From IMG/VR virus record IMGVR_UViG_3300030333_006847, positions 1 to 46,752 of that record: a stretch of 46,752 nucleotides of DNA; one strand, given 5' to 3'. Made by a program: the position numbers and the translations under genes. Under the pieces are notes generated by a model. It saw nothing but the letters and a program-made list of their open reading frames with translations, ran no database searches and was not told the origin of the DNA. Source of the DNA: a virus. Within the stretch, counting starts at the first letter, position 1, and every line of letters starts with the position of its first letter. This document shows, piece after piece, positions 14,701 through 45,119 of this stretch.

Positions 14701-17700
14701 GCATCTTTAAAATAATCAGTCATTCCATATCTACTTATCTCTTCTATACCATCTCCAGATAATCTACATACTGTGTTTCTATTTCTATCTGTAAAATATA
14801 TTCTATAACCATACACAGCAAATGATTCAGGATTTGTACCTATTCCATATTTACCAAATGTGTCTGGTATTATTGTTTGAGCTAAAACTTTATTTGTTGC
14901 TGTTAGTTGATGAGATCCATCAGCATTATACAAGGCATCTTTATTAGTTAATATTTTTGCAACCTTGTCTTCACAGAAAGCAAGTACATTTGTTTGTCTT
15001 GTAAATAACTTTTGTATACTTCCATAAGCTGGATTTAAATCTTTTGTTATTTGCTCAGCTTGTATAAATTGATTAGTTTCATTTACACCACTTTGAGAAT
15101 TATATATACCAGAATATATTAAACCAGAAAACTTATGATCTTCTTTATATTGCTCTGCTAATTCAGTAGATACTCTAGGTCCTTTATCAATAGTAGGTGC
15201 ATTAAAATCATCTCTTATTCTATTAGATTCTACTCCATTACCAAAACTAAAACAATTATGCCATTCTATTGTATGAAAAGATCCTAATGTAGATATATCA
15301 TGTGTTTTAGCTGTTTCATAATACAAATTTAAATCTGGTCGTTCCTTTGGTTCTGTTTCAAATATAGCTGGATTATCACTAGAATATGATACTCCAGTAT
15401 TTATTTGTTTTAATATTTGTAGTTCAGTAAAAGAATTTCTTTTACGACCTGGTTTAGCCCACCATGTTAATGGATATTGATTATTACCATCTTTATCGGT
15501 ACTATCTGCTGATGAAGGTGTAACTCCTCCAAACTCACCTGCTTTAGTTGGGTTCCAATTAAGATATTTGTCTAATGTCATTTCATACCTTATAGCATGA
15601 TTACTAGAATCTTTAAAAGCATTTCCGTGATAAGAGTTATTATAACCAACACCTCTATTATAATTATTAAGATGTACTCTTAATACTGATTTAATTTTAT
15701 AAACTTCTTGATCTGGATCATCTTTAAATCTTAATATGGTTCCAGATGCTCTTAGAGCATTGTGTACCGCAAAGTTAGTTGCAGCTGTACCACCTTTACT
15801 TGTATTTTTAAATCTTGATTGGCCAGGAAAATACCATTCTGGATTTTTCTTATTGTCAGGATCTATTTCTATTAATCTAATATCTAAGTATTTACTACCC
15901 TGAACTAAACCTACACCTGCAGCAGAACCATGACCATTTTGAGGTCTAGCATGACGACCAAACGCTCCTTCATCAATACCAAATATCTGATGTCCTTGAA
16001 AATCATCTCTTTCATCAGTGTTAGAAGTAAAATAATATAATTTAACAGAGTGTTGAATCATATATTCTGCGTTAGCATCATTACTCAATAAATACTCTTG
16101 TAATAAAGAATCTCTATTTATCTTAACAAAAAATCTACCTCCAAATTCTGGTGAACTTACTGTTTCTTCAACCGCCCATTCAAACTGCAAACCAGCAGCT
16201 TTACCTTGAGTTTCATTACCTGAAGCCATATTACCAGTAACAACAAAATCTATATCAGATTTAAAAGGTTTTTTACTAGTTATAGTGTAGTAATCATTAG
16301 TGTCATTATACTCTTCATTACCATTTATATCTGTTCTACTAACCGTTCCAACCGCGTACCAATCAGATACACTACCACTTGATGTTTTTATTCTAAAATA
16401 TTTATTACCCACGGTTTCACCAGCAATGTTTTCTAATGAAGAACCAACCATTGCAGCTCCTTTAACTATAACAGTTGTATAATCTTGTTGAGGAACACCA
16501 TCCGTCCAATCTTGACCTCTACCAAAACTAGTTTCCACAACACCTAATGAACTTTTTTGCATTTTTAGAAAATCAGGAGCTTCATTTTCTATTGATAATA
16601 TTTTATATTTAGCTGAACCTTCTAACTCAACAGCTTCGTGTGAATCATGTTTCTTTTTTAATATTAAATAATCATCAATTGTTATTTTGTTTCTTTCTGA
16701 TGAAGGAAAACTAATCCAAACATTACCATCTTCAGCATCATACCATCTATCCATAGCTAAATTATAATACTGATCAGATGGTTCTTTTATATAATATTTA
16801 AAGTGTGTAGCCCAAGATGGAGCATCAGTTGTTACTTTAGCTCTTATTGAATTTCTTTTTTTAGCATCTTTTTGAGGTATTGTAACAGTTGCAGCATCAT
16901 TAGATAAAACTGGTGTTTGTCTACCATATTTATCTAAATAAACAATACCAACCTGATAATTTCTTATAGACTTTAAAGATCTAGTAGGTGTACCCGCGTC
17001 AAGTATTTCTGTTGTATTATGTGTTATAACAAACTCAGGATCTTCCGCTACATTATAATTTTGTAGATAATTAGCATACATCAATCTATTTGCAGATACT
17101 TCTTGTGCTAAAGCTTTTCTTGGTACATTATCCCATGGTCTTAAAGATTGATTAGATGGTATTAAAGAGTGTACTTGTTCATTTGTAATCTCAAGTTCAG
17201 TTTCATTATCTTTTAATGTCTCAACAACATACATATTAGTACTAACAGAATCTTTATAAAGAACATCAACTTCAATAACATCATCTGGTTTAGTTTCAAA
17301 GCTATCAATTGTTAGTTTTCTAACATTGTTAGTCATAGCTAAATTGTAACCATTATCAGCATCATAATCAAATCCACCACTTACATCGGGTAAGAAAGCT
17401 GGTCGTGTCCAAGGGGATATTACAGAATATTCTCCATCTTTATATTTCCATCTATATGCAAATCTTGGAAATTTTAATTCATAAAATGGATCTTTCTGTT
17501 CTAAATCACAAGTCCATGTTAATTCTGAAGATGTTGTATTACTTGATATACTAGCAACGCTACACTTGAATTCTCTCATTGTAGCACTAAAGTTTGTTAA
17601 CTCTTCTAATACTAATCTAATCTCTATTTCTTCATCAATATCGTTTACAGATGTTTCAGCAGTCATTTTTATAGTTTGACCTACCGTCCAAGCTGGTTGT

Positions 17701-18743
17701 GGTGAAAACTGAATAGCACTTGGTAATTTTACTGCAACAGCACTACCAGTACTATAATCATAATATATATTTCCATCAGGATCTTCAACATTACTATCAA
17801 CATTTGTACCAGATGGAACAGGAACTGTATTACCCCCAACACCATCTAAATACGTAAAAAAGTTAGCAGCAGTCGTACAAGTTGATGTTATTGTACCACC
17901 ACTTTCACTAGAACTCATAACTATTTTAGGAGCATTTAATGGATATTTTTTTATTGTAGTTATATGCTCTTCTTTTATATGACCTTTGTCTATACCATTA
18001 ACGATAAGTTTTGTGTGAAGAATATTTGAAGGGGTACCATTTTTACATCTTTTTATATGTATTTTTTTTGGTTCTGTTTTATTATCTGTCCACATTAAAA
18101 AACCATCTAATACATTTATACCAGATATATAATGCTTTGATGTTAAATCATCAGTACCTTGAACAAAATTTAACACCTTATCAGCAACAAATGTTAAAGT
18201 TCCAGATATAACACTAGAATAATCTGATCCTGCGCCAGATAGTGTTAAAGTTGTTCCTGATATACTAGCAACGGTAGTATTAGCTGGTACATTAGTACCA
18301 CTTACCGTCATACCCGCTCTTATGTTGTCATTTCCAGCAGAAAGTGTTATTGTATTTGCTCCACCAGAATGTGAAGATACTGTGGCTTTATCTTGATATA
18401 CATCAACAAAAACAGCTCTAGGAGTAGTTGTATCACCATCTGTATGATACTCTATTATTAAATCTAAACCTTGCTCTCCTGTTGAAGGAACTGGTCCAGC
18501 AACTAACCAATATATTCTATCTTCTCTAGCATAATTTACAACTCCGACGCATCTACTACCACTTGGTGCTAATGCTGAAACAACAGTATTACCAAATGAA
18601 TTTTCTACTACACCAGTATTTGAACTCTCTGATGTAGCAATATCTACATTTAACGCATCTCTATATTCTCCACTAGGGACTAACCTCTCGTCAAGGTCTT
18701 TATTCATTTTCCCTGAGATAAAAGTATTCTTAATTTCTGGCAT
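11715..18743 (-). CDS. Giant tail hub/nozzle-like protein with C-terminal cadherin-like domains
   Basis: A 2342-aa structural protein. The N-terminus (FISGKMNKDLDERLVPSGEYRDALN) matches a family I recall as a large structural protein in uncultured marine podoviruses. It is probably analogous to T7 tail tubular protein B (gp12) or the crAss-like muzzle protein. Residues about 1-1450 are beta-rich and likely form the nozzle. The middle is made of Thr/Asn/Gly-rich Ig-like segments. Residues about 2028-2238 resemble two cadherin/VCBS-type repeats (GTEDVTLSIDL, then STDVDGSGTYTYTLVE and DADGSGYTEKEFTITV). The C-terminal 100 residues contain five Cys (CDGGGF, GCFQ, GCSS, final C). It follows the 375-aa neck gene by 3 nt. 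The C-terminal adhesin-like region may contact host surface glycans or Ca2+, which is inference. Confidence 0.75.
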   Translation of the reverse strand: MPEIKNTFISGKMNKDLDERLVPSGEYRDALNVDIATSESSNTGVVENSFGNTVVSALAPSGSRCVGVVNYAREDRIYWLVAGPVPSTGEQGLDLIIEYHTDGDTTTPRAVFVDVYQDKATVSSHSGGANTITLSAGNDNIRAGMTVSGTNVPANTTVASISGTTLTLSGAGSDYSSVISGTLTFVADKVLNFVQGTDDLTSKHYISGINVLDGFLMWTDNKTEPKKIHIKRCKNGTPSNILHTKLIVNGIDKGHIKEEHITTIKKYPLNAPKIVMSSSESGGTITSTCTTAANFFTYLDGVGGNTVPVPSGTNVDSNVEDPDGNIYYDYSTGSAVAVKLPSAIQFSPQPAWTVGQTIKMTAETSVNDIDEEIEIRLVLEELTNFSATMREFKCSVASISSNTTSSELTWTCDLEQKDPFYELKFPRFAYRWKYKDGEYSVISPWTRPAFLPDVSGGFDYDADNGYNLAMTNNVRKLTIDSFETKPDDVIEVDVLYKDSVSTNMYVVETLKDNETELEITNEQVHSLIPSNQSLRPWDNVPRKALAQEVSANRLMYANYLQNYNVAEDPEFVITHNTTEILDAGTPTRSLKSIRNYQVGIVYLDKYGRQTPVLSNDAATVTIPQKDAKKRNSIRAKVTTDAPSWATHFKYYIKEPSDQYYNLAMDRWYDAEDGNVWISFPSSERNKITIDDYLILKKKHDSHEAVELEGSAKYKILSIENEAPDFLKMQKSSLGVVETSFGRGQDWTDGVPQQDYTTVIVKGAAMVGSSLENIAGETVGNKYFRIKTSSGSVSDWYAVGTVSRTDINGNEEYNDTNDYYTITSKKPFKSDIDFVVTGNMASGNETQGKAAGLQFEWAVEETVSSPEFGGRFFVKINRDSLLQEYLLSNDANAEYMIQHSVKLYYFTSNTDERDDFQGHQIFGIDEGAFGRHARPQNGHGSAAGVGLVQGSKYLDIRLIEIDPDNKKNPEWYFPGQSRFKNTSKGGTAATNFAVHNALRASGTILRFKDDPDQEVYKIKSVLRVHLNNYNRGVGYNNSYHGNAFKDSSNHAIRYEMTLDKYLNWNPTKAGEFGGVTPSSADSTDKDGNNQYPLTWWAKPGRKRNSFTELQILKQINTGVSYSSDNPAIFETEPKERPDLNLYYETAKTHDISTLGSFHTIEWHNCFSFGNGVESNRIRDDFNAPTIDKGPRVSTELAEQYKEDHKFSGLIYSGIYNSQSGVNETNQFIQAEQITKDLNPAYGSIQKLFTRQTNVLAFCEDKVAKILTNKDALYNADGSHQLTATNKVLAQTIIPDTFGKYGIGTNPESFAVYGYRIYFTDRNRNTVCRLSGDGIEEISRYGMTDYFKDAFNNIDSKDIILGTYDEDKGNYNLTINNETISFTELVRGWTSRKSFIPEDGISLNGKYYTFKDGEMWEHNKNATRCSFYGETNQGSSIKLIFNEGPSQIKNFKTLNYEGTQSKIIEHDGHDSDGGVGIGAQYYNEDPKDGWYCDSIVTDQQSGSVNEFVEKEGKWYNYIKGEVMPTDTTIDIQEFSSQGIGEIKEVGGTTTVTGYDITVSVNDSGSNNYTTSAPQIIENKGNGASINQAVTFSLSANGGYEFTDTSVAAMTAASETSSPVTNCVVEGNVTFTKVDANNVTVSVPVIFTMGAANQSIVVNLTGGAVVPGQSIEGTNKVSIPGNMTHTTSPADQATNYSKTNVPTTTGVTLFTKQFVAAANYKIGTDPDTIVDLSACDTPSNYDVSYVQNTGTFAGENLTDVTFTVKYKFPTEDISGDVIDWRVENAENLAVSTGKIHNYTFSETSINYFGEVRKLKIFGDPDATLTLNAYNNATSGTSLVSGPKTVTIPSNGIYEEDITFPGNSGATTVVYKVVLTEIAADSFLFNSGNSPKTITLNQYAEGSITFNLSKTDVTNITLPTNTTVLTGRPNANPTDDDDYVDPVISWVITGANSKKWRPAVTPTASHITGASVSGDIATLTNGGKIEPDLDIAINNTLGANNTATITGTYLVSLLGTAADTATLNLDNVLQLNTAPVAANKTFNGTEDVTLSIDLKANSGATDADTVGGADTLTYAIVADNTGGNGSLTLNTTTGVATFVPTANWNGTTNFTWKCNDGFEDSNTATATITLAAAPDAPTNITLSANTQPEDTAINTTIGSFSSTDVDGSGTYTYTLVETSGTHPDGAKFNISGNNLRNSVVFDYENPVDANTNNEYVIKVRSTDADGSGYTEKEFTITVTFVAHERWEISTYNADGSGPNGVHHVSAEKICDGGGFVNMPSGCFQLNHWVRWRTASGGCSSTEYGRGKITDMSSISDGTPTAYISGDVHFSSLADSEPDSGVSGTNC

Positions 18744-30156: not shown

Positions 30157-31065
30157 TTACTTCTTAACAACTTTCTTTTTTGGCTCTGTTATAAACCAAT
30201 CTTTATAAACATCACGTTTCTTACAAATATAATCTATATATTTATCTACTTTTTCTTTCCAATTTTTGTCTACAGCTGGATTTACAATACCAGATTTATA
30301 ACTAGAAAAGCATTTATTTACATAATCTTTTATATGATGTTGATTTGTAAATAATTCTCTATTGATAGCTTCAAAAGAACCAAACTTAAGTTGATTCCAT
30401 GTATCAATAGGTTCTATTCTTTTACCTAAAACAGCAGCATAAAGAGCGCTTTCGCTTATATGTGTTGTATATATTGTTTTAGCTTTTTGTAAATAATAAT
30501 ACATATCAACCTCTCTTGGTAATATGTTTTCCTCTCCAAAAAAATCTTTTAACTCACCTATTATTTGATGAGTTGTTATTGGATGTGGTTTAAAATATAC
30601 ATTATCACCATGTTTTTTAGATATAGCTTTTAATCTATTTAAACAAACATTAGTTTTAACTTTATTTGAACCAGGTAATACAACTAAATAATCTTTAGCT
30701 GGCCATTTTTCAATTTCTTCTTTTCTATTTTGATATTTATTAGCTGCCTTAGATTGTATATTTTTTATAAAATAAGATGACCAATCGTTAACTTCTTTAA
30801 CATCATCATTCCAAGCATCAGTTAATTGTTCAATTCTAAGTTTTGAATTTAGAGGTTGAAAATAAAAATTAGTAGCAAATTCTGTATATCCCATAGTTTT
30901 AAAATAAGGCATTTCTTCTGCCATCACATCGTAACTAGTTTCAATATTTTTTTCACTACATTTACGTAAACAATAACCCTCAACCTGTTCTAAATTATCA
31001 AGAGCTTTGTTTTTCTTAAGTCGTCCTATTCTTTGAGATAAGACCTTTTGATTAAACATTTCCAT
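30157..31065 (-). CDS. GT-B-like glycosyltransferase (capsule/Kdo-transferase-like)
   Basis: A 302-aa protein. The C-terminal half carries the signature of the capsule-polysaccharide or CDP-glycerol-type glycosyltransferase fold: DYLVVLPGSNK (about 126-136), GDNVYFKPHPIT (about 154-165) and a sugar-nucleotide-site-like ISESALYAAVLGKRIEPID (about 206-224). The N-terminal part is helical and basic. A phage-encoded enzyme of this type could modify a virion protein or a host glycan. It lies immediately downstream of the two Thr/Asn-rich giant proteins, which offer many possible acceptor residues. That pairing is inference. The 61-nt AT leader contains GTAATAATAATAATA, so separate expression is possible. 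Confidence 0.6.
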   Translation of the reverse strand: MEMFNQKVLSQRIGRLKKNKALDNLEQVEGYCLRKCSEKNIETSYDVMAEEMPYFKTMGYTEFATNFYFQPLNSKLRIEQLTDAWNDDVKEVNDWSSYFIKNIQSKAANKYQNRKEEIEKWPAKDYLVVLPGSNKVKTNVCLNRLKAISKKHGDNVYFKPHPITTHQIIGELKDFFGEENILPREVDMYYYLQKAKTIYTTHISESALYAAVLGKRIEPIDTWNQLKFGSFEAINRELFTNQHHIKDYVNKCFSSYKSGIVNPAVDKNWKEKVDKYIDYICKKRDVYKDWFITEPKKKVVKK

Positions 31066-31126: not shown

Positions 31127-34100
31127 CTATCCGCCTCCTCCACTTCTATCAAGATCTTCCCTCTCTGTAGAATAATCTTCTCTATACGTGCTATAATTTG
31201 ATTTCTTCGTATTATACCCAGTAGTAGTACTAATAGTAGTTGTAGTTGTAGTACTAGTATTAAACGATGTAGATGTTGATTTGCTAGTTTGTACTACAGT
31301 AGCGGTTGATTTACTTGTCTCATATGTTGTTGTAAATAACGTTATTGTATTAGTCGCTGTATTATACGTAGTTGTAGTAGACTTAGATGTACCCCATGTG
31401 GTAGTAGTTGATTTACTAGTGCTCCAAGTAGTACTTGTTGATTTTGTTGTCAACGTACTTGTGTTAAAGGTTGTAGTTGTATTAGTTGAAGTATTATAAG
31501 TCGTAGATGTAGTTTTAGACGTTTCATGTGTAGTCGTTGTGCTTTTACTAGTAGCCCATGATGTTGCAAACACAGTTGTTGTAGCTGTTTGTGTGTTGTA
31601 AGTCGTTGTTGTACTTGTGCTAGTATTATATGTTGTTGATGTTGTTTTATTTGTCTCGTAAGTAGTAGTCGTATTAGTTGACGTGTTATAAGTCGTAGTA
31701 AATGCAGTCGTTGTAGCAGTTGATGTGTTAAACGTTGTAGTGGTAGATTTACTAGTTAACCATGTTGTATTTGTAGATTTACTAGTTATAGAACTTGTTT
31801 CAAATATAGTTGTTCTACTTGTCTCCCAAGTTGTAGTATATGTAGTTGTAGTGGCAGTTTGAGTATTGTATGTAGTAGTAGTACCCTTATCTGTTTCATA
31901 AGTAGTAGTTGTAGCAGTAGACGTATTAAACGTCGTGGTTGTACTAGTACTAGTGTTATATGTTGTGCTAGTTGCTTTACTTGTAACTGTAGACGTATTA
32001 AATGTTGTAGTAGTAGCAGTTTGGGTATTATACGTTGTAGTTGTGTTTGTAGCTGTATTATATGTAGTTGTTGTGTTTTTATTAGTACTCCAAGATGTTG
32101 TTGTAGATTTACTAGTTAAAGTACTAGTATTATAAGCTGTTGTAGTACTTTTATCTGTACTCCACGTTGTAGTAGTAGACTTACTAGTTGATACAACTGT
32201 ATTAGTACTTTTACTTGTTATAGTAGAAGTGTTAAATACTGTTGTCGTACTCTTACTAGTTTGAACAACCGTGTTTGTAGATTTTGATGTATTATAAGTA
32301 GTAGTTGTACTCTTACTAGTAGATACAGTTGTGCTAGTACTAGTGTTGTAAGTCGTTGTTGTAGCTGTAGATGTATTATAAGTTGTTGTTGTGTTAGTAC
32401 TAGTATTATAAGTTGTCGTTGTACTTGTAGACGTATTATAAACAGTAGAAGTAGAATGTTGAGTTGTTGTAGATGTATTGAACGTCGTAGTTGTACTCTT
32501 CGAAGTTGACCACGTAGTTGATGTTGACTTGCTAGTACTTACAACTGTTGATGTTTGTGTGTTATATGTAGTTGTGGTAGCAGTTGTTGTATTATAAGTC
32601 GTTGTAGTACTCTTTGAAGTATTATAAGTTGTAGTAGTACTCTTACTTGTTTCATAAGTTGTAGTTGTAGATTTAGATGTATTCCATGTAGTAACTGTAC
32701 TAGTATTATACGTCGTAGTAGTGTTCGTACTTGTGTTATAAGTTGTTGTAGTAGCTGTAGAAGTATTAAATGTAGTAGTAGTACTTTTATTTGTAGACAC
32801 TACAGTATTAGTACTTTTATTTGTATTATAAGTTGTACTCGTTGCTTTACTTGTACTTACTACAGTAGTAGTTGCTGTATTATATGTAGTGGTGGTAGCT
32901 GTAGACGTGTTAAACGTAGTAGTTGTTGCTGTACTCGTATTAAACGTTGTTGTAGTTGATTTATTTGTACTCCATGTAGTAGTAGTACTTTTACTCGTGC
33001 TAACAACAGTTGTTGTTTGTGTATTATACGTTGTTGTTGTACTTTTTGATGTGTTATATACTGTATTAGTACTTCTAAGTGTATTGTAAACAGTTGTAGT
33101 GGTTGTACTTGTGTTAAATGTTGTTGTAGTAGATTTATTAGTGCTCCAAGATGTTGATGTACTAGTGTTGTACGTAGTTGTTGTATTAGTTGATGTATTA
33201 AATGTAGTTGTAGTATTAGTTGATGTATTATAAACAGTATTAGTAGATTTACTAGTTTGAACCACTGTATTAGTAGATTTACTAGTCTCGTATGTAGTAG
33301 TTGTTGATCTACTAGTTGACCAAGTTGTAGTTCTACTAGTAGACCATATAGTTGTATATGTTGTTAAAGTACTAGTATTAAACGTAGTTGTTGTATTATA
33401 TACAGTAGTTGTATTTTTTGATGTAACCGTACTTGTATTATATGTGGTAGTATAGGCCGTAGATGTACTTTGAGATGTTGTAGTACTTGTATTGTAAGCT
33501 GTACTAGTTGCTTTCGTAGTGTTATACGTTGTGGTCGTATTAAAGGTAGTTGTTGTACTTTTAGATGTTATTGTATTTGTGCTCCACGTAGTAGTATAAT
33601 CGGTTGCTGCACTTTCAGACGTAACGGTAGATGTATTATATGTAGTGGTATAAGCGGTTGTTGTGCTTTTAGATGTAACAGTTGATGTGTTGTAGGTTGT
33701 TGTATACGCGGTACTTGTACTTCTACTAGTTGTTGTTGACGTATTATAAGTTGTACTTGTTGTTGTGTTTTTAGTAGTTGTTTTACTAGTACTCCAGCTA
33801 GTATTAAAAGCAGTTGATGTATTTTTTGATGTAACTGTGGTAGTATTATATGTAGTTGTAAACGCTGTACTAGTCGTTTTAGTTGTTACAGTACTAGTAT
33901 TCCACGTTGTAGTCCAAGATGTAGTAGTGTTCTTAGATGTAGTAGTACTTGTGTTATATGCTGTTGTTGTAGTTGTGCTAGTATTAAACGTGGTTGTTCT
34001 ACTAGTTTCCCACGTTGTAGTATAAGCGGTTTCTGTTGACTTACTAGTATTATAAACAGTCATAGTATTTCTAGATGTAACAGTAGAAGTATTATATGAT

Positions 34101-34759
34101 GTTGTTCTACCAGTGGACCACGTTGTTGTAAATGCTGTCGTAGTGGTTCTGGAGGTTTGAGTGGTGGTATTAAACGTAGTGGTCCTAGTTGTGTTATGAC
34201 CCGTAAACCAACTAGTTGAAGTAGTATGTTGTGTTATAGTACTAGTGTTATATGTGGTAGTTCTAGTTGTTTCATACGATGTACTTGTAGAATGTTTTGT
34301 TGTTGTTGAGGTGTTATAAGCAGTTGTTGTAGCATACTGAGTTGTGGTGGATGTTGCTTTATCAGTAATAGTAGTAGTATTATATGCTGTGTTATACGCG
34401 GTGGTTGTACTATGTTGGGTTATAGTACTAGTATTAAATGTTGTACCTCTAGTAGTATTCCACGTTGTAGTGTATGTTGTTGTTGTACTAGTACTAGTAT
34501 TGAACGTAGTTGTTCTACTAGTTGACCAAGTAGTGGTAGTACTCCTGTTTGAACTTCTTGATGTACTTACTGTCGTAGTTCTTGATGTAGTTGTGCTTGT
34601 GTTAAAGGTAGTTGATATAGTTGTAGCTCTACTAGTACCATATGTAGTAGTTCTATCAGTTCCTACAGTATATTCAGTTTGACTTTCTGGAGTAAGCGTA
34701 GTACTTGTAGATCTAGAAGTACCTCTATTAGTTTGTACACAGGTTTGAGTATTAGGCAT
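31127..34759 (-). CDS. Giant Thr-rich repeat protein 2 (probable fibre)
   Basis: A 1210-aa protein that is dominated by Thr, Ser and Asn, with Tyr/Phe/Trp/Val markers. After a short head (MPNTQTCVQTNRGTSRSTST) almost the whole length is built from 10-residue units such as YNTSTNTTTT and YNTSKSTTTT, interspersed with 8-, 12- and 14-residue forms. Lys/Arg occur mainly at a fixed place (TSK/TSR). The end is different and charged (REDYSTEREDLDRSGGGG). The parity-preserving repeat suggests beta structure. It belongs to the fibre region and is paralogous to the 1203-aa protein. The start ATG overlaps the methyltransferase-Hint stop by 8 nt, and a perfect AAAGGAGG lies 8 nt upstream. Fibre or adhesion function is inferred. 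Confidence 0.75.
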   Translation of the reverse strand: MPNTQTCVQTNRGTSRSTSTTLTPESQTEYTVGTDRTTTYGTSRATTISTTFNTSTTTSRTTTVSTSRSSNRSTTTTWSTSRTTTFNTSTSTTTTYTTTWNTTRGTTFNTSTITQHSTTTAYNTAYNTTTITDKATSTTTQYATTTAYNTSTTTKHSTSTSYETTRTTTYNTSTITQHTTSTSWFTGHNTTRTTTFNTTTQTSRTTTTAFTTTWSTGRTTSYNTSTVTSRNTMTVYNTSKSTETAYTTTWETSRTTTFNTSTTTTTAYNTSTTTSKNTTTSWTTTWNTSTVTTKTTSTAFTTTYNTTTVTSKNTSTAFNTSWSTSKTTTKNTTTSTTYNTSTTTSRSTSTAYTTTYNTSTVTSKSTTTAYTTTYNTSTVTSESAATDYTTTWSTNTITSKSTTTTFNTTTTYNTTKATSTAYNTSTTTSQSTSTAYTTTYNTSTVTSKNTTTVYNTTTTFNTSTLTTYTTIWSTSRTTTWSTSRSTTTTYETSKSTNTVVQTSKSTNTVYNTSTNTTTTFNTSTNTTTTYNTSTSTSWSTNKSTTTTFNTSTTTTTVYNTLRSTNTVYNTSKSTTTTYNTQTTTVVSTSKSTTTTWSTNKSTTTTFNTSTATTTTFNTSTATTTTYNTATTTVVSTSKATSTTYNTNKSTNTVVSTNKSTTTTFNTSTATTTTYNTSTNTTTTYNTSTVTTWNTSKSTTTTYETSKSTTTTYNTSKSTTTTYNTTTATTTTYNTQTSTVVSTSKSTSTTWSTSKSTTTTFNTSTTTQHSTSTVYNTSTSTTTTYNTSTNTTTTYNTSTATTTTYNTSTSTTVSTSKSTTTTYNTSKSTNTVVQTSKSTTTVFNTSTITSKSTNTVVSTSKSTTTTWSTDKSTTTAYNTSTLTSKSTTTSWSTNKNTTTTYNTATNTTTTYNTQTATTTTFNTSTVTSKATSTTYNTSTSTTTTFNTSTATTTTYETDKGTTTTYNTQTATTTTYTTTWETSRTTIFETSSITSKSTNTTWLTSKSTTTTFNTSTATTTAFTTTYNTSTNTTTTYETNKTTSTTYNTSTSTTTTYNTQTATTTVFATSWATSKSTTTTHETSKTTSTTYNTSTNTTTTFNTSTLTTKSTSTTWSTSKSTTTTWGTSKSTTTTYNTATNTITLFTTTYETSKSTATVVQTSKSTSTSFNTSTTTTTTISTTTGYNTKKSNYSTYREDYSTEREDLDRSGGGG
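31240..34690 (-). repeat. Coding tandem array, about 30-nt degenerate units (array 2)
   Basis: The array of Thr-rich units is repetitive at the protein level but scrambled at the DNA level, because Thr and Ser codons vary from unit to unit. ACTAGT (Thr-Ser) is conspicuously frequent. Antisense reading frames remain open by virtue of the codon pattern and are not genes. Confidence 0.8.
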
Positions 34760-35834
34760 TTGTAAATCCTCCTTTCTTAATTAAAATGTCATTAATAAAA
34801 TAATTATAATCACTTTGTATATGACTAATTTTATAAGCATTATCGTCACTACTATCGAATTCTAATTTTGTTATTTCTACTTCAGTATTATTAATTTTAT
34901 GCAATTTATCTCCAACAACTAATTCATTTACATTTTTTTCAATCCAAGATCCATCACGTTTTACTATCATAGGTTGATTACCAGAAACTGTTAATAAACC
35001 ATCATTTATTTTCCACATTCCATAACATGTAATACCCCAACAGGTATGGCTGCTTCCTGCATATGTTAAAACAGGATTCGCAGGATCTTCACATGTTAAT
35101 ACACTATATGCTTGCCCTGCTTTTTCAATAGGTATATGTCCAATAGTTTTTCCTGAATAATGAAGAAGTTTAGATCCATTAACAAAACCAGGTATTTTCT
35201 TCAAATCAGGTGTTAATGTTAAAACTGGTAACTTCATTGTAGTTTGATTAAAATATGTATTTTCAGGTGGGTCAACTGTAATGTTTGTAAATACAACATC
35301 ATTAGCCCAAGATGTTGGTTCAGTACAATCAAAAAGCATAAAGGGATCTGTTGTACCAGCTGTAAAATTCCACCATGTTACTTTACAATTAGGTTTAGCT
35401 TTATTTCTAGCAAAATGACGGAATTTAGTATGTAATAAATCGTCTGCGTATGCAAATAATTGAAATATTGCATCGTAACGAGTGTGGTGTTCAGATGTTA
35501 ATGTCCACCAATGATCTTCTACAACTCTAACATTTGATTTACCAACAGCCCAAGCTTTTGCTTTCTCTATTAAGTCAGGATGTGATTCAGTTATAGTATG
35601 AGAAGCAGGATTTCTTGCTTGAATAGCATCTGATAACATACCCATACCAAAACCACATTCTAAAACATGATCACCATCTTCGACGCATAGCTCGGCCGCC
35701 TTAGTATGTATCGGTTGTTCCCATGACATTTGAACTTCTCTCGTGTCACCTAAATCCGAAACCCAAGTAATCTTATCATCAGCAAATGTTAAACTTGCTT
35801 CTAAATACGTCTTTCGTCTAATTGTTGGTTCCAT
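34752..35834 (-). CDS. GAMT/RMT2-like methyltransferase fused to a degenerate Hint-like domain
   Basis: A 360-aa protein. Residues about 45-160 are a class I SAM-dependent methyltransferase: motif I VLECGFGMG (57-65), then HTITESHPDLIEKAKAW (79-95) with the acidic ribose-binding residue E83. The pattern resembles guanidinoacetate or arginine N-methyltransferases. Residues about 264-356 look like a Hint (hedgehog/intein) module: TCWGITC near its start, GNQPMIVKRDGSW (285-297) in place of the usual NHPxxxxDGxW, ELVVGDKL (304-311) and a final YKISHIQSDYNYFINDILI (334-352). The block-B His is Asn, and no terminal His-Asn is present, so self-cleavage is doubtful. It lies between two giant fibre-like genes. 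A role in fibre modification or attachment is inference. Confidence 0.7.
   Translation of the reverse strand: MEPTIRRKTYLEASLTFADDKITWVSDLGDTREVQMSWEQPIHTKAAELCVEDGDHVLECGFGMGMLSDAIQARNPASHTITESHPDLIEKAKAWAVGKSNVRVVEDHWWTLTSEHHTRYDAIFQLFAYADDLLHTKFRHFARNKAKPNCKVTWWNFTAGTTDPFMLFDCTEPTSWANDVVFTNITVDPPENTYFNQTTMKLPVLTLTPDLKKIPGFVNGSKLLHYSGKTIGHIPIEKAGQAYSVLTCEDPANPVLTYAGSSHTCWGITCYGMWKINDGLLTVSGNQPMIVKRDGSWIEKNVNELVVGDKLHKINNTEVEITKLEFDSSDDNAYKISHIQSDYNYFINDILIKKGGFTNA
34768..34775 (-). promoter_or_regulatory. Perfect Shine-Dalgarno before the 1210-aa gene
   Basis: AAAGGAGG on the minus strand stands 8 nt before the ATG at 34759. It lies inside codons for the KKGG end of the Hint-like domain. 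The other starts I inspected in this window have AT-only leaders without a comparable sequence. Confidence 0.5.
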
Positions 35835-35852
35835 ATTTTATATATTTACATA

Positions 35853-38800
35853 TTATATACAGTTTCTAAAGCATCCACCATATTGCGTCATCCAACATGA
35901 ATGATACCAAGTTGTCCATGATGTAGTATATGTATATGCTGTTGTATCTTCATCTACTAAAATTGTGGTATTATAAAAAGTTGTATGACTAGTATTCCAA
36001 CTCGTATTATACGTGGTGTTTCTACTGGTAGCCCAAGCTGTATTCCAACTGGTAGTAGTAGATGTATTAAACGTAGTTGTAAATACAGTATTTGTTGTGG
36101 TACTAGTATTCCAAGTAGTTGTTCTACTGGTAGCCCAAGTAGTGGTTGTACTTTTAGTAGTTTGTGTACTAGTATTAAATGTCGTATTCCTAGTGGTGTT
36201 CCATGTAGTAGTATAAATAGTTGTTGTACTATGAGCTGTTACAGTACTAGTATTATATTGCGTTGTATATATTGTTGTTGTATCTGTTGACTTACTAGTT
36301 TGTACTTGAGTACTTGTCTCCCAAATTGTTGTGTAAGTGGTGACTGTATTAGTACTTGTGTTATATGTTGTATCTCTACTAGTATTCCAAGTAGTTGTAT
36401 AAACAGTAGTTGTGTTTTTACTAGTTTGAGTGGTGGTATTATATGTTGTTGTTGTGCTAGTATTATATGAAGTATTAAAAGCTGTAGTTGTGCTCCTACT
36501 TGTTACCGTAGATGTATTAAAAATTGTACTCGTACTTGTGTTGTACGTGGTAGTATAAGCGGTTGTTACATTAGTACCTGTTTCAAAAGTAGTCTGTGTA
36601 GATATTGTGGTAGTGGTAGATGTATTATATGTAGTAGTCCTACTAGTGTTCCATGTAGTAGTTGTGCTAGTACTTGTATTGTATGCTGTTGTGTATACCG
36701 TTGAAGTAGTTTTAGCGGTTTGTGTACTAGTATTATAATTTGTAGTATATGCAGTAGTAGTATTTTTACTAGTCACAGTACTAGTATTATATTGTGTTGT
36801 ATAGGAGGTGCTAGTGCTTACAACAGTAACAGTACTAGTATTAAAAGTTGTTGTATATTGAGTTGTTGTACTTGTATTGGTACTAGTATTGTAAGTAGTG
36901 GTATAAGCCGTAGACGTAGTTCTACTTGTTACTGTACTCGTATTATATGCTGTTGTAAAAGCTGTAGTGGTATTTTTACTTGTTACTGTACTCGTATTAT
37001 ATGTTGTTGTAAAAGCTGTAATTGTACTCTTGATTGTTACTGTACTTGTATTATAAGTTGTAGTATATGCTGTAGTAGTACTTCTACTTGTGGATGTAGA
37101 TTTACTTGTTTCATACGTTGTTGTTGTATTCGTAGAGGTATTATAACTTGTTGTCCAACTAGTTGTAGTGTTTTTTGACGTTACAGTAGTTGTATTATAT
37201 GTTGTTGTATAAGCCGTTGTTGTACTTCTTTGTTCTTCTGTTGTTTTAGACGTAGCCCAAGTAGTTGTATGTTTTGTAATGGTAGAGGTATTAAACGCTG
37301 TAGTTGTACTAGTATTAAAAGTGGTTGTAGTATCAGTAGATGTATTATAAGTCGTAGTGGTCGCAGTTTGAGTATTATACGTGGTTGTAGTGTTGTGATT
37401 TGTTGACCAAGTAGTGGTAGTACTCTTGTTAGTTGACCAAGTTGTTGTTGTGGATTTACTAGTTGAAACTGTTGTGGTAGTAGACGTATTAAAAGTTGTT
37501 GTGGTACTATGATTTGTTGACCACGTGGTTGTTGTTGACTTAGTTGTATTATAAGTTGTATTAGTACTTCTTTCAGTATTGTACACGGTGGTAGTTGAAT
37601 GACTAGTTTCAACTACTGTATTAGTAGCAGTATTATAAGTTGTAGTAGTATTTGTACTTGTATTGAAAGTTGTAGTAGTGCTTTTATTTGTTGACCACGT
37701 TGTTGTGGTACTTCTACTTGTGCTCCATGTGGTCGTTGTAGATTTTGAAGTACTAACCACTGTACTCGTACTAGTGTTATATACTGTAGTAGTATTAGTA
37801 CTAGTATTGTATGTGGTAGTAGTTGCCGTTTGAGTATTATATACTGTAGTTGTATTTTTATTTGTACTCCAAGTGGTAGTAGTGGATTTACTTGTTTCTA
37901 CTACGGTAGCAGTTGCTTTACTTGTAGATACAACCGTTGTTGTAGATGTATTAAAAGTAGTCGTGGTACTTGTACTAGTATTATAAGTTGTAGTTGTAGA
38001 TTTACTAGTTTCGTAGGTAGTAGTGGTACTCTTACTAGTACTCCAAGTGGTATTTGTACTTTTGCTAGTTTGAACCACGGTAATTGTACTCGTGTTAAAT
38101 GTGGTTGTGGTGTTAGTTGAAGTATTGAATGTTGTTGTTGTACTATTACTTGTCGCCCAAGTAGTATTATAAACAGTTGATGTATTAGTACTGGTGTTAT
38201 ATGTAGTAGTTGTATTTTTAGATGTTTCGTATGTAGTAGTAGTAGACTTACTAGTCTCATACGTGGTAGTTGTATTTTTACTTGTACTTACGACAGTTGT
38301 AGTAGATGTGTTGTAGGTTGTTGTTGTAGACTTACTAGTCTCATATGTAGTGGTTGTCGCTGTAGTTGTATTGTAAGTAGTAGTTGTACTTTTGTTAGTA
38401 CTCCATGTTGTTAAAAACGCGGTAGTAGTTGCTGTTTGAGTATTATAAGTTGTAGTAGTTGCAGTACTAGTGTTAAACGTAGTAGTAGTACTTTTTGATG
38501 TTTCCCAAGTAGTATTATAAGCGGTTGTAGTAGATGTTGATGTATTAAACGTGGTAGTAGTACTAGTTGAAGTATTATAACTTGTAGATGTTGTTTTACT
38601 TGTAGATACAACTGTATTTGTAGATTTATTTGTGCTCCAAGTAGTTACATAAGCTGTTGTTGTATTAGTAGAAGTATTATATGTAGTAGTTGTTGACTTA
38701 CTGGTAGACACAACAGTATTTGTTGTTGTGCTAGTATTATATGTGGTTGTAGTGCTTTTTGATGTACTTACAACAGTATTTGTACTTTTACTAGTTATTG

Positions 38801-39464
38801 AACTAGTTTGAAATATTGTAGTTTTACTAGTGTTCCACGTGGTAGTATATGTCGTTGTCGTAGCCGTAGTTGTGTTATATGCTGTTGTTGTTGACTTATT
38901 TGTGCTCCAAGTGGTATTTGTTGATTTACTAGTTACTGTACTAGTGTTATATGTCGTAGTAGTAGATTTAGTTGTATTATATGTTGTAGTTGTATTAGTA
39001 GAAGTGTTATAAGTAGTAGTCGTACTTTTAGATGTTGACACGACTGTATTTGTAGATCTTTGTGTTGCGGTGCTAGTATTAAAGGTCGTTGTAGTATTAG
39101 TAGATGTGTTATATGTAGTAGTGGTGTTAGTAGATGTATTGTATGTGGTTGTGGTACTTTTGCTAGTAGCCCAAGTAGTATTAAAAGCAGTGGTAGTTGT
39201 TGTGCTTGTATTAAAAGCTGTGGAAGTACTCGTGGATGTATTAAAAGCTGTTGTTGTAGACTTACTAGTAGATACAACCGTTGAGGTTGATTTTTGAGTA
39301 ATAGTACTAGTATTATATGCTGTTGTTGTATTGGTTGACGTATTATACGTCGTAGTGGTAGACTTGCTAGTTGACCAGGTTGTGGTAGTCGACTTCGTAG
39401 TCGCAGTGGACTTTGTCGTTGATTCGTTCCAAAATTCTTTCCTGAAAAATCCTAACCATTTCAT
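35853..39464 (-). CDS. Giant Thr-rich repeat protein 1 (probable fibre)
   Basis: A 1203-aa protein and paralogue of the 1210-aa protein. A short head (MKWLGFFRKEFWNESTTKS) leads into units such as YNTSTNTTTT, YETSKSTTTT and, in the C-terminal third, YTTTYNTSTVTSKNTTTA-type composite units. The unique end contains WTTWYHSCWMTQYGGCFRNCI, a cluster of three Cys and several aromatics not found in array 2. There is no signal peptide. It follows the 276-aa adaptor-like gene by 15 nt. The head is unusually short for a tail-anchored fibre, so anchoring may use the preceding adaptor or the Cys-rich end. Function is inferred from context. Homologous repeats make precise boundaries with other phages hard to judge. 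Confidence 0.75.
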   Translation of the reverse strand: MKWLGFFRKEFWNESTTKSTATTKSTTTTWSTSKSTTTTYNTSTNTTTAYNTSTITQKSTSTVVSTSKSTTTAFNTSTSTSTAFNTSTTTTTAFNTTWATSKSTTTTYNTSTNTTTTYNTSTNTTTTFNTSTATQRSTNTVVSTSKSTTTTYNTSTNTTTTYNTTKSTTTTYNTSTVTSKSTNTTWSTNKSTTTAYNTTTATTTTYTTTWNTSKTTIFQTSSITSKSTNTVVSTSKSTTTTYNTSTTTNTVVSTSKSTTTTYNTSTNTTTAYVTTWSTNKSTNTVVSTSKTTSTSYNTSTSTTTTFNTSTSTTTAYNTTWETSKSTTTTFNTSTATTTTYNTQTATTTAFLTTWSTNKSTTTTYNTTTATTTTYETSKSTTTTYNTSTTTVVSTSKNTTTTYETSKSTTTTYETSKNTTTTYNTSTNTSTVYNTTWATSNSTTTTFNTSTNTTTTFNTSTITVVQTSKSTNTTWSTSKSTTTTYETSKSTTTTYNTSTSTTTTFNTSTTTVVSTSKATATVVETSKSTTTTWSTNKNTTTVYNTQTATTTTYNTSTNTTTVYNTSTSTVVSTSKSTTTTWSTSRSTTTTWSTNKSTTTTFNTSTNTTTTYNTATNTVVETSHSTTTVYNTERSTNTTYNTTKSTTTTWSTNHSTTTTFNTSTTTTVSTSKSTTTTWSTNKSTTTTWSTNHNTTTTYNTQTATTTTYNTSTDTTTTFNTSTTTAFNTSTITKHTTTWATSKTTEEQRSTTTAYTTTYNTTTVTSKNTTTSWTTSYNTSTNTTTTYETSKSTSTSRSTTTAYTTTYNTSTVTIKSTITAFTTTYNTSTVTSKNTTTAFTTAYNTSTVTSRTTSTAYTTTYNTSTNTSTTTQYTTTFNTSTVTVVSTSTSYTTQYNTSTVTSKNTTTAYTTNYNTSTQTAKTTSTVYTTAYNTSTSTTTTWNTSRTTTYNTSTTTTISTQTTFETGTNVTTAYTTTYNTSTSTIFNTSTVTSRSTTTAFNTSYNTSTTTTYNTTTQTSKNTTTVYTTTWNTSRDTTYNTSTNTVTTYTTIWETSTQVQTSKSTDTTTIYTTQYNTSTVTAHSTTTIYTTTWNTTRNTTFNTSTQTTKSTTTTWATSRTTTWNTSTTTNTVFTTTFNTSTTTSWNTAWATSRNTTYNTSWNTSHTTFYNTTILVDEDTTAYTYTTSWTTWYHSCWMTQYGGCFRNCI
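35960..39420 (-). repeat. Coding tandem array, about 30-nt degenerate units (array 1)
   Basis: Same architecture as array 2 and in the same orientation. Homologous recombination between the arrays would delete the intervening methyltransferase-Hint gene, but codon scrambling leaves only short identical tracts. Confidence 0.8.
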
Positions 39465-39479
39465 ACAGTCTCATAGTTT

Positions 39480-40310
39480 TTAAGCAAATTCACTAATATA
39501 ATTTATAAGTACCTTATCTGTAGCAACTACAATATATGATATAACAGATACAGCGTTTGCAGCTACACTGAAATTTACATTTGCTCCAGCAGGTACTTTC
39601 ATATAACTAGGTAGACTAGTATATGTACACGATCCAACACTCGAAGGATTGTTTAATATAATACAACCAGCTTGTCCAATATTCTTAGAAGCTACGGTTA
39701 AAGCTATAGTATTAGCCTCATTAGCTATTGTTAAACTAAAATTTTCATTAACACTTAAGTCACATGTATGTGTAGATGTTCCACCTGCACTAGATGCAGT
39801 AACACTTGTTATTGAATTGGTATTATATCTACCTATTGTATATATTTTTCCATCAGTTAATGTACCATTGTTTATATGTACATTTGTTAAGCTCCAATCA
39901 TAGTTGTTTGATGATCCGTCTTGAGTTATACTATTTACTCTAAAAACACCATAATTATTAGGATCGTCACTTTGGCATATTATTATATGTTGTCCAGATA
40001 AGATAGAGAAATAATTTTCGAAGGAGGTTGTAGTATCTCCATAGACATATTTATTTGTTTTTAGAGATGTTATTGTTGAAAAAGTAGATAAATTACTACC
40101 CGTTTGATCAAACTCTCCAGATGCCGGACTTCCACTGTTTTTAAGTCTCCAATTAAACAAAACTGGAACTCCAGATGAATTTATATCTGCAAAATAATTT
40201 GAAATGCTTTCTATTGTAAAGTTTTTAGTTACACCACCTTCATTAGAGCCTATAAGTTTATCTGTGTTGGTAACAGATGTGTCTTGAACATATGTACTAA
40301 TTCTTGCCAT
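39480..40310 (-). CDS. Tail fibre/adaptor-like protein
   Basis: A 276-aa protein. The N-terminus (MARISTYVQDTSVTNTDKLIGSNEGGVTKNFTIESISNYF) is the DKLIGS...TKNFTI pattern that I recall at the N-termini of marine phage tail-fibre proteins. The middle is Ser/Thr/Asn/Gly-rich and beta-like. The end is hydrophobic and beta-like (VNFSVAANAVSVISYIVVATDKVLINYISEF). It begins the fibre module directly after the holin (2 nt) and before the first Thr-rich protein (15 nt), so it may be the virion anchor for the giant fibres. Confidence 0.6.
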   Translation of the reverse strand: MARISTYVQDTSVTNTDKLIGSNEGGVTKNFTIESISNYFADINSSGVPVLFNWRLKNSGSPASGEFDQTGSNLSTFSTITSLKTNKYVYGDTTTSFENYFSILSGQHIIICQSDDPNNYGVFRVNSITQDGSSNNYDWSLTNVHINNGTLTDGKIYTIGRYNTNSITSVTASSAGGTSTHTCDLSVNENFSLTIANEANTIALTVASKNIGQAGCIILNNPSSVGSCTYTSLPSYMKVPAGANVNFSVAANAVSVISYIVVATDKVLINYISEFA

Positions 40311-42866: not shown

Positions 42867-43307
42867 TTATCTATGTTTATCTTTGATCATATCATCTATA
42901 GCTTTATTATAAACTTTATCAGTATATGATCGGTTATTAAAAAATATGTTTTTCTCGGAAGTGGGTATATCCTCCTCACCCAATAAGATTCTGTATATAC
43001 GGGATATAAGTTGACTGCATTTAAATGATGTTTTGTATATACTGTATTTAATTGTTGTTCTATTTCGATGTCTCCATACTTCGATCCAACCTTCTCGTCT
43101 TAATCGTTCCCAGCGATTTTTATCCCAGGACATTGTATAAGAGCCATCTATAAAATTATTACGTGTAAATCGTGATTTGCAATCTAAATAGACTAAAAGT
43201 TCTAAATCAGCATCTTTTAAATTATAAGTTTTACATGCCCATTTTCTAACTAGTCTATAATATTTAAATAATTGCATCTCACGAATATCCGATGCTGTTA
43301 ATCTCAT
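42867..43307 (-). CDS. Winged-helix-like regulator (MarR-like)
   Basis: A 146-aa protein. The segment MQLFKYYRLVRKWACKTYNLKDADLELLVYLDC is followed by a probable recognition region (YTMSWDKNRWERLRREGWIEVWRHRNRTTIKYSIY), a winged-helix arrangement with a GWI...TIKYSIY wing. I recall this family in uncultured marine phages as a putative DNA-binding protein. It is basic overall. It overlaps the groES stop by 4 nt (ATGA), so it is coupled to the chaperonin genes and could regulate the late block. Role inferred. Confidence 0.6.
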   Translation of the reverse strand: MRLTASDIREMQLFKYYRLVRKWACKTYNLKDADLELLVYLDCKSRFTRNNFIDGSYTMSWDKNRWERLRREGWIEVWRHRNRTTIKYSIYKTSFKCSQLISRIYRILLGEEDIPTSEKNIFFNNRSYTDKVYNKAIDDMIKDKHR

Positions 43308-43561
43308 TCTACTATAACTACATCTTGTATTTGTATAACGGAATATTGTTTTTCTTCAAATGTTATACTATGACCTCTAGTTTTGTCATAATGTATAATA
43401 TCATTTATATTGATTCCTTCTACTTTATTACCAACACTTATTATTTTAGCTTTTATATATCTATTTTCAGTGTCTAATTTATCTGTTATTTCTAAACCGG
43501 CGATTTTTTTCGGCGATTTTTGAAAATTTTCTACTATTATATAATAATTAATTGCTCTCAT
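43304..43561 (-). CDS. groES: Co-chaperonin GroES-like
   Basis: An 85-aa Cpn10-like protein, slightly shorter than the usual 95-100 aa. It starts [11 protein letters not shown] (like the KPLxDRVIV strand). KKIAGLEI corresponds to the mobile loop (the SAGGIVL region), followed by YIKAKIISVGNKVEGININDIIHYDKTRGHSITFEEKQYSVIQIQDVVIV. The roof loop is reduced. It overlaps the end of groEL by 14 nt. The gene order groEL then groES is the reverse of the bacterial operon. It should cap the phage or host GroEL ring during folding of virion proteins. Confidence 0.75.
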   Translation of the reverse strand: MRAINYYIIVENFQKSPKKIAGLEITDKLDTENRYIKAKIISVGNKVEGININDIIHYDKTRGHSITFEEKQYSVIQIQDVVIVE

Positions 43562-45119
43562 TTCTTACTCTTACATTAGAAATTACACAATCTGCAGAGA
43601 TAATAGTAGAAACAACACTTACTGCGTTTTTTAGTGCTGTTTTTGTAACTAAGACGGGGTCTACGATGCCAGATTTGATCATGTCGACTTGTTTACCGGA
43701 AATTACATCAAACCCAATACCTTGTTGAGTGGGTATTTCGTAGTTTTCAATACCAGCGTTTGCCATAATGGTTAAAAATGGAGATTTTATAGCCTCTACT
43801 AGTATTTTCTCCCCAATATTTTCAACTTTTATGCTATTTGCAGCATTTAATAACGCAATTCCACCACCAGAAATGATTCCTTCTTGTAATGCAGCTTTTG
43901 TTGCGTATATAGCGTCTTCAACTCTGTCTTTTTTCTCTTTTAATTCGACTTTTGAGTTAGCACCTACTTTAATAAGACCAACAGAACCGGAAAGCATAGC
44001 TAATCTATCTTGTAGTTTACGCTTAAAGTAAGGTTCTTTTTCTTTTTTGATCTTATTTTTAATGTCTTTTACTCTTTCTTCTAGTTTTTTATTTGAAATA
44101 CCAGTTGTCAGGACGGTAGTTCTGTTATTTGTTACAGATTTGACTACTTGGCCAAGACAATCTGGCTGGATTAGATCTAAATCATCTCCAAGCTCTTCAT
44201 TCATAACTTGTGCTCCAGTTAAAAACGCCAAATCTTCAATAGTATCTGACTTAGAAGCACCAAAACCAGGTAAATCTATAATATTTACATTTATATTACC
44301 CTTTACTTTATTCATTAATAATGCTGACTTCACCTGCTGATCAACTTCTGCAATTATTAGTAAAGGTTTTTTGTTTTTAATAACATACTCTAGTATGTTT
44401 TGTATCTTTCTTATATTAGGAATAGGTGAAGAAACGATTAAAACACATGGATTTTCTAACTCTGCGGTATTTCTATCTTTGTTTGTTACAAAGTGTGGCG
44501 ATGTTAAACCTGAATCTAACTGTATACCATCTACTATTTCGTTAAAAGTGTCTTCAGTATCACTTTCTTCCATTAAAACTACACCATCTTTACCTACTTT
44601 CTCGTAAGCTGTCGCAATAATGCTACCAAGTTTCCTATCATTATTACATGAAATAGTCGAAACGTTGGTAAGCATGTCACCAGCCACTGTTTTGGCGTGT
44701 TTTGAAAGGTATTCATTAACCTTTTCATATCCTGATTTAATTCCATTTTTAATATCTCTTGTAGAACAATCCATAAATTCAGGATTATTCACTGTTTTTA
44801 ATAGTGATTCGGCAAGGACGATAGCCGTTGTGGTACCGTCACCTGCTTCTTTCACAGTATTGTTAGCAGCTTCTTTTATTAGTGTTGCACCTATATTCTC
44901 AACAGGATCTAATAATATAACTGATTGCGCTACGGTTACACCGTCTTTAGTAATAACAGGTTTACCTAATCCATCTTCATAGATAACGCATTTACCTGAA
45001 GCTCCCAGGGTAGATTTTACTGCTTTTGCTAGTTTATCTACGCCGTCTATAACTTTACTTTTGGCATTATCGCCAAAATTGAGATCCTTAACGATCTCGC
45101 TAGGGTGATTAAATTCCAT
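43548..45119 (-). CDS. groEL: Chaperonin GroEL
   Basis: A 523-aa protein that is complete along the family (about 545 aa in bacteria). The ATP site GDGTTTA (93-99) with D94 and the second catalytic Asp in DAIYATKAA (D402) followed by SGGGIALL are conserved, so ATPase function is likely. It lacks the C-terminal GGM repeats of bacterial GroEL. The apical part ([34 protein letters not shown]) is intact. It lies 19 nt downstream of the 96-aa gene. A phage-encoded chaperonin with its own groES probably folds the capsid or the giant fibre proteins. The leader is AT-rich and no heat-shock (CIRCE) element is seen. Confidence 0.92.

Follow-up and report, generated by a model that had tools for sequence, protein, structure and literature searches.

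Why would a virus encode two very long proteins built mostly of threonine-rich near-repeats, and what would keep such repeats aligned? The question is raised by the IMG/VR virus record IMGVR_UViG_3300030333_006847, of which positions 1 to 46,752 were analyzed (46,752 nucleotides, the whole stretch being referred to here as the window). A sequence-only reading had pointed to two giant Thr-rich proteins with units of even length and had proposed that selection keeps beta-strand parity, as in a beta-helix or a very long beta fibre, possibly akin to ice-binding solenoids. Both minus-strand open reading frames (ORFs) are present, and their products, which we call A and B, are predicted to be complementary partners, a relationship that the reading overlooked. 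We consider it very likely that A and B constitute a heteromeric antiparallel beta tail fibre whose register is set by an aperiodic aromatic:basic code. The relevant features are as follows.

35853..39464, minus strand: gene A, 1203 amino acids (aa), putative first fibre strand (from the ORF, its parity and its antiparallel match to B)
31127..34759, minus strand: gene B, 1210 aa, putative second, antiparallel strand (from the ORF and its pairing with A)
35856..35879, minus strand: A C-terminal motif GGCFRNCI; similar GGCxRGC[IMQ] tails occur on other A proteins lacking an S74 domain
31130..31207, minus strand: B C-terminal tail, residues 1185-1210 (from the register and family comparison)

A begins with MKWLGFFRKEFW and B with MPNTQTC; each continues as a Thr-rich stem up to approximately residue 1185, and the C-termini are GGCFRNCI and STYREDYSTEREDLDRSGGGG, respectively. 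Threonine makes up ~48% of both proteins. Index-parity (modulo 2) counts over the whole of A are 111:1 for Asn, 175:2 for Ser, 62:4 for Tyr, 28:3 for Trp, 44:2 for Lys and 14:0 for Arg, and those for B are 98:1 for Asn, 186:5 for Ser, 62:1 for Tyr and 22:0 for Trp; one face carries Thr, Tyr/Phe/Trp and Lys/Arg/His and the opposite face Thr, Ser, Asn, Ala and Val. The earlier face assignment needs correcting for Val: it is found predominantly on the Asn/Ser face (30:16 in A), and on the aromatic face mainly as the second V of 'VV'. Unit steps, counted inside the stems between successive aromatics (or second V of VV), are even in all 122 instances in A (0/122 odd) and in 113 of 115 in B (2/115 odd), with steps of 4, 8, 10 and 14 dominant. 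A two-state phase model calls a single slip in A, at its extreme end (residue ~1174), and none in B, and composition-shuffled A gives ~23 slips vs the one in real A. The strict two-residue alternation extends over nearly the whole of each chain, and the proposed selection for beta-strand parity is well supported, as is a fibre of great length built from beta-strands.

Within each genome A and B have stems of equal length, and we therefore scanned all A/B registers. With B reversed on A there is one register in the window, at i+j=1198 (0-based), in which both ends are flush and 1171 residues are matched without a gap; in 1-based numbering, residue j of B lies opposite residue 1200-j of A over 1171 positions. 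Mutual information computed for A[i] against B[S-i] reaches its maximum here, 0.577 vs a mean of 0.222 (z=13.2 at S=1198), whereas the parallel scan gives no comparable peak (z=3.1). At this register 60 of 62 basic residues of A and 67 of 72 in B face Tyr, Phe or Trp, and the pairs include 30 Y:K (4.8 expected), 26 K:Y, 15 F:K, 14 K:F, 8 R:F and 8 F:R. Phe is essentially always opposite Lys/Arg, Tyr is opposite Lys/Arg/His or Thr, and Trp mostly opposite Thr, the remaining pairs being mostly Thr:Thr or aromatic:Thr. There is also a diagonal preference: with Trp four residues before the base, the opposite aromatic is mostly Phe, and with Tyr there it is mostly Tyr (chi-square p ~1e-14). Which chain bears the base follows an aperiodic order over the 127 rungs in the window.

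The true register is recovered from each of the 150-residue pieces tested (51/51). The observed rate of 0.1085 compares with best rates of 0.034 +/- 0.0045 when the units of B are shuffled (z=16.5); confining the shuffle to 200-aa blocks gives z=20.6. Facing Thr codons agree at their third base no more often than expected by chance; the matching of A and B is therefore at the protein level, and DNA-level palindromy as its cause was rejected on the same grounds. An asymmetry between S-10 and S+10 was considered as pointing to another strand alongside; the unit grammar may account for it, and we base no claim on it.

A degenerate DNA pattern search of IMG/VR found similar proteins in many contigs, with a fixed gene order of A (M[KR]WL..DFWN...) followed by B (MPNT...). 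All 21 complete A/B pairs examined have the end-to-end antiparallel register: the mutual-information peak lies there in 15/15 first pairs, and in 6/6 further complete pairs it lies 1-5 residues past the end of the A stem. For pairs truncated by contig ends the register was predicted beforehand, and the prediction was correct in six of seven. Among all 15x15 combinations of the first pairs, the cognate B ranked first for 14 of the 15 A proteins, and likewise in reverse. Eight genomes free of register shifts together have 621 aromatic:basic pairs, against 8 basic:Thr and a single pair each of basic:basic and aromatic:aromatic. The lengths of the A and B stems are closely coupled (Pearson r=0.9995, 20 pairs, range 268-1185 aa), with a largest difference of 24 aa.

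Two kinds of C-terminus occur on the A proteins of the relatives, an S74 intramolecular chaperone domain and a GGCxRGC-type tail, the window A being of the latter type; the same Thr-rich dyad stem, A-then-B order and antiparallel register are found in both types of genome. S74-type relatives have PF13884 (Peptidase_S74) matches in A of 23.9 and 27.4 bits vs a cutoff of 22, and the A tip of relatives has fold matches to viral 'intramolecular chaperone auto-processing' proteins. In these relatives S74 is on A only.

One relative, L033, carries both strands in a single 1704-aa protein. Its two halves pair around axis 857.5, within the sole non-repeat domain (residues 823-889), and place basic residues opposite aromatics in 54/69 and 56/63 cases. 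We read this protein as a fused hairpin version of the A/B pair. A search of IMG/VR for relatives of its linker returned identical copies only.

With gapped pairing of 15 pairs, 1225 of 1300 basic residues (94%) lie opposite an aromatic; each pair needs 0-9 register shifts, most of them by a single residue. Parity slips called from a single chain coincide with these shifts: nine of nine do so in L016, and the coinciding positions are 291/294 in L062, 173,194/177,197 in L067, 388,404/385,403 in L097, and 271/274 in L125. Beta-bulges would behave in this way, a one-residue insertion flipping the face and moving the register by a single position. Larger changes are also mirrored, as is seen by comparing the window with its relative L127, for which only the collinear block and the net change were used, the fine gap alignment outside the block being unreliable.

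37995..39434, minus strand: A residues ~11-490, collinear with L127 at offset +1, with its mirror in B residues ~709-1189
31193..32635, minus strand: B residues ~709-1189, collinear with L127 at offset -455, the mirror of the A block

In every 40-aa step of the block the A and B offsets add up to the register change (-454). In A and B alike, collinearity breaks off at the mirror position, and past this point A is shorter by 454 aa and B by 455 aa. Separately, residues 159-553 of A in L016 are organized as ~98-aa modules, with single-residue bulge pairs at 238/258, 336/356 and 434/454, and this genome has a recurrent non-canonical joint in which FV[GR]NSISTLITA in A lies opposite NTLST..INRNT...ITITA in B.

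We therefore propose the following model, in which A and B would be two strands of one tail fibre, running antiparallel over their full length and paired as beta-strands. The ~1,171 residue pairs would give a fibre of roughly 0.39 micrometre when fully extended (our estimate, taking 3.3 Angstrom per residue). Side chains on one face would encode the register, with Lys, Arg or His on one chain opposite Tyr or Phe, and sometimes Trp, on the other. The choice of base-bearing chain, the kind of aromatic and the even but variable lengths of the units together would form an aperiodic barcode with one good alignment, so that near-repeats of 1,200 residues could not slip. Parity would be preserved because each chain must match a different partner protein in antiparallel register, and insertions and deletions would be even, or single-residue bulges, and the lengths of A and B would co-vary, because a change in one strand needs a match in the other. 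The base end probably comprises the N-terminus of A and the C-terminus of B, whose tail is a candidate virion anchor; the tip would have the A C-terminus (S74-bearing in relatives) and the B N-terminus. The S74 tips suggest three A:B pairs, and thus a trimer with six strands. At the atomic level the strands would adopt beta geometry, and the fibre would presumably be located on the virion and bind a host receptor.

How well do other explanations account for these observations? One is that A and B form separate homotrimeric triple beta-helices, making two fibres whose antiparallel similarity stems from shared ancestry and mirror-like repeats. S74 domains of known fibres act on homotrimers, and the restriction of S74 to A in the relatives would fit; however, ordinary duplication cannot yield matching in reverse order, the third bases of paired Thr codons are identical only at chance, the matching is cognate-specific and complementary (basic to aromatic) rather than identical, and the code, the length coupling and the bulges all require direct contact between A and B. 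We regard this explanation as very improbable. The self-contained beta-helix of the sequence-only reading, either a single-chain beta-solenoid or an ice-binding-like Thr array, draws on the Thr-rich TxT pattern and the even unit lengths, but is strongly disfavoured, to the point of being nearly negligible: coil length is not fixed (steps of 4-26 aa), there are hardly any Gly, Pro or Asp turn residues, and neither A nor B alone has a full-length self-pairing register (L033 excepted). It also leaves the cognate antiparallel complementarity unexplained, and the likeness to ice-binding solenoids is not supported, the parity being tied to a second, different protein.

It is likewise unlikely, although less so, that the pair is antiparallel but not a tail fibre, serving instead as a host-surface filament, or as an intracellular scaffold or inhibitor filament during infection. 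Fibre operons do not usually include a methyltransferase, the window A lacks S74, and no isolate or virion proteome places A or B in the particle; against this stand the S74 caps in relatives, the position in a late structural/lysis region beside holin, terminase and portal, and the pectate-lyase receptor-binding genes that related phages have at the same place. Several further points count against the heteromeric tail fibre. A Pfam search did not find PF13884 in the window A or B. Named phages searched with A (protein and DNA), the S74 tip and the middle methyltransferases yielded no Thr-rich relative, although low-complexity masking blinds these searches. Several of the pairs compared are relatives of each other, bulges are needed for L016 and L097, to which a single register is a poor fit, and in L092 the predicted register is missed unless B begins ~30 aa later. 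The 311-aa hairpin tip of L033, modelled by AlphaFold2 without an alignment, reached a predicted local distance difference test score (pLDDT) of 33 and so says nothing about the structure either way.

The gene between A and B may bear on how the proposed fibre is tuned.

34752..35834, minus strand: S-adenosylmethionine (SAM) methyltransferase-like protein, 360 aa, guanidinoacetate methyltransferase-like, with a Hint/intein-like C-terminal region

A phmmer search of the PDB matched residues 33-159 to guanidinoacetate N-methyltransferase (3orh, E=2.6e-5; 3orh, 1xcj, 1p1b and 1khh, E 2.6e-5 to 4.1e-5), and there is a weak PF13649 match below cutoff. Nearly all relatives inspected have a methyltransferase-like gene in this position, with or without the Hint-like part, the S74-type genomes encoding a shorter protein. 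As a hypothesis only, the enzyme might methylate Lys and Arg of the fibre and thereby alter their interaction with the aromatics. In L047 the Hint region is joined to the C-terminus of A itself. A homologous methyltransferase-like gene lies at 8970-9567 in L169 (LR745206.1, the 634,780-bp record of an uncultured phage), where it immediately follows two long fibre-like ORFs and has no Thr-rich pair nearby, which suggests that methyltransferase and fibre genes may be linked more widely.

Genes A and B are flanked by a holin together with GroEL/GroES on one side and by the terminase on the other. Podophages of Flavobacterium (elemo), Cellulophaga and Tenacibaculum have relatives of this terminase (phrog_6681) and of the portal (phrog_6547), and a scan of GTDB genomes gave, among 19 pattern matches, one real A/B pair, in a Flavobacteriales metagenome-assembled genome (L144); the host is therefore probably a flavobacterium, and probably a marine one. 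Other genes of the window include the following.

39480..40310, minus strand: 276-aa protein just upstream of A, a probable short fibre or adaptor; its N-terminus resembles a fibre-like protein of podovirus MW202828 (NTDKLIG...TKNFTI)
43304-45119: GroES and GroEL genes (phrog_3188, phrog_5725), shared with related Flavobacterium podophages; they may have a bearing on how giant fibres fold
30157-31065: 302-aa protein downstream of B (phrog_26179, unknown function) with glycan-transferase-like features by eye, possibly acting in fibre or surface modification
11715-18743: virion structural protein of 2342 aa (phrog_14478) that has cadherin/Ig-like domains close to its C-terminus and a weak crAssphage muzzle C-terminal match

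Neither A nor B matches any model in Pfam, NCBIfam or PHROGs. B, the protein searched against PDB sequences, has no match at E<=10 and thus none to solved needle domains; a PDB fold search with a tip model gave nothing significant, and literature searches found no description of such fibres. No searchable family model, solved structure or paper describes the A/B fibre.

Protein fibres normally obtain their register from identical chains, coiled-coil heptads or folded domains. Here two separately encoded polypeptides, each too repetitive for alignment by ordinary rules, appear to designate a single partner and a single register by means of a readable residue code, and we think it probable that the pair is a protein analogue of complementary strands: two ~1,200-residue proteins with an aperiodic antiparallel basic-opposite-aromatic code, having a unique register over hundreds of nanometres, co-evolving by matched mirrored insertions and deletions, and maybe tuned by a dedicated Lys/Arg methyltransferase. 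Such a system would show how repeat proteins can lengthen without slippage, with partner and alignment predictable from sequence alone, and would offer a template for the design of very long addressable beta fibres; the code implies that synthetic fragments should bind each other when matched but not when mismatched. It also points to an unusual heteromeric adhesion organelle in phages probably infecting marine flavobacteria.

Heterospecific coiled coils similarly derive partner choice and register from a side-chain code along a repeat, but they are alpha-helical and far shorter, whereas A and B would combine beta alternation, antiparallel pairing and an aromatic:basic, aperiodic barcode. The tip needle of T4 gp37 is six-stranded and antiparallel (PMC7291167), with iron ions along its length (PMC6957217). 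The likeness is topological, six strands being our proposal here, and is closest for the hairpin form in L033; however, the needle is one short segment of one protein, whereas the A and B strands come from two genes, extend for up to ~1,200 residues and carry the aromatic:basic code. S74 tail fibres and spikes, including T5 pb1 with its auto-cleaved C-terminal chaperone (PMC12750041), resemble the relatives' A in the C-terminal PF13884 chaperone. Their known stems are homotrimers, whereas here the stem would be partnered by a second full-length antiparallel protein, and the window A differs further in having the Cys-containing GGCFRNCI tail in place of S74. In Cellulophaga phage phi13:2 (Pachyviridae) the matching place holds structural proteins and pectate lyases, the pectate-lyase tail spikes occupying the same neighbourhood upstream of a related terminase; those spikes are enzymatic, and the Thr-rich pair is not annotated there.
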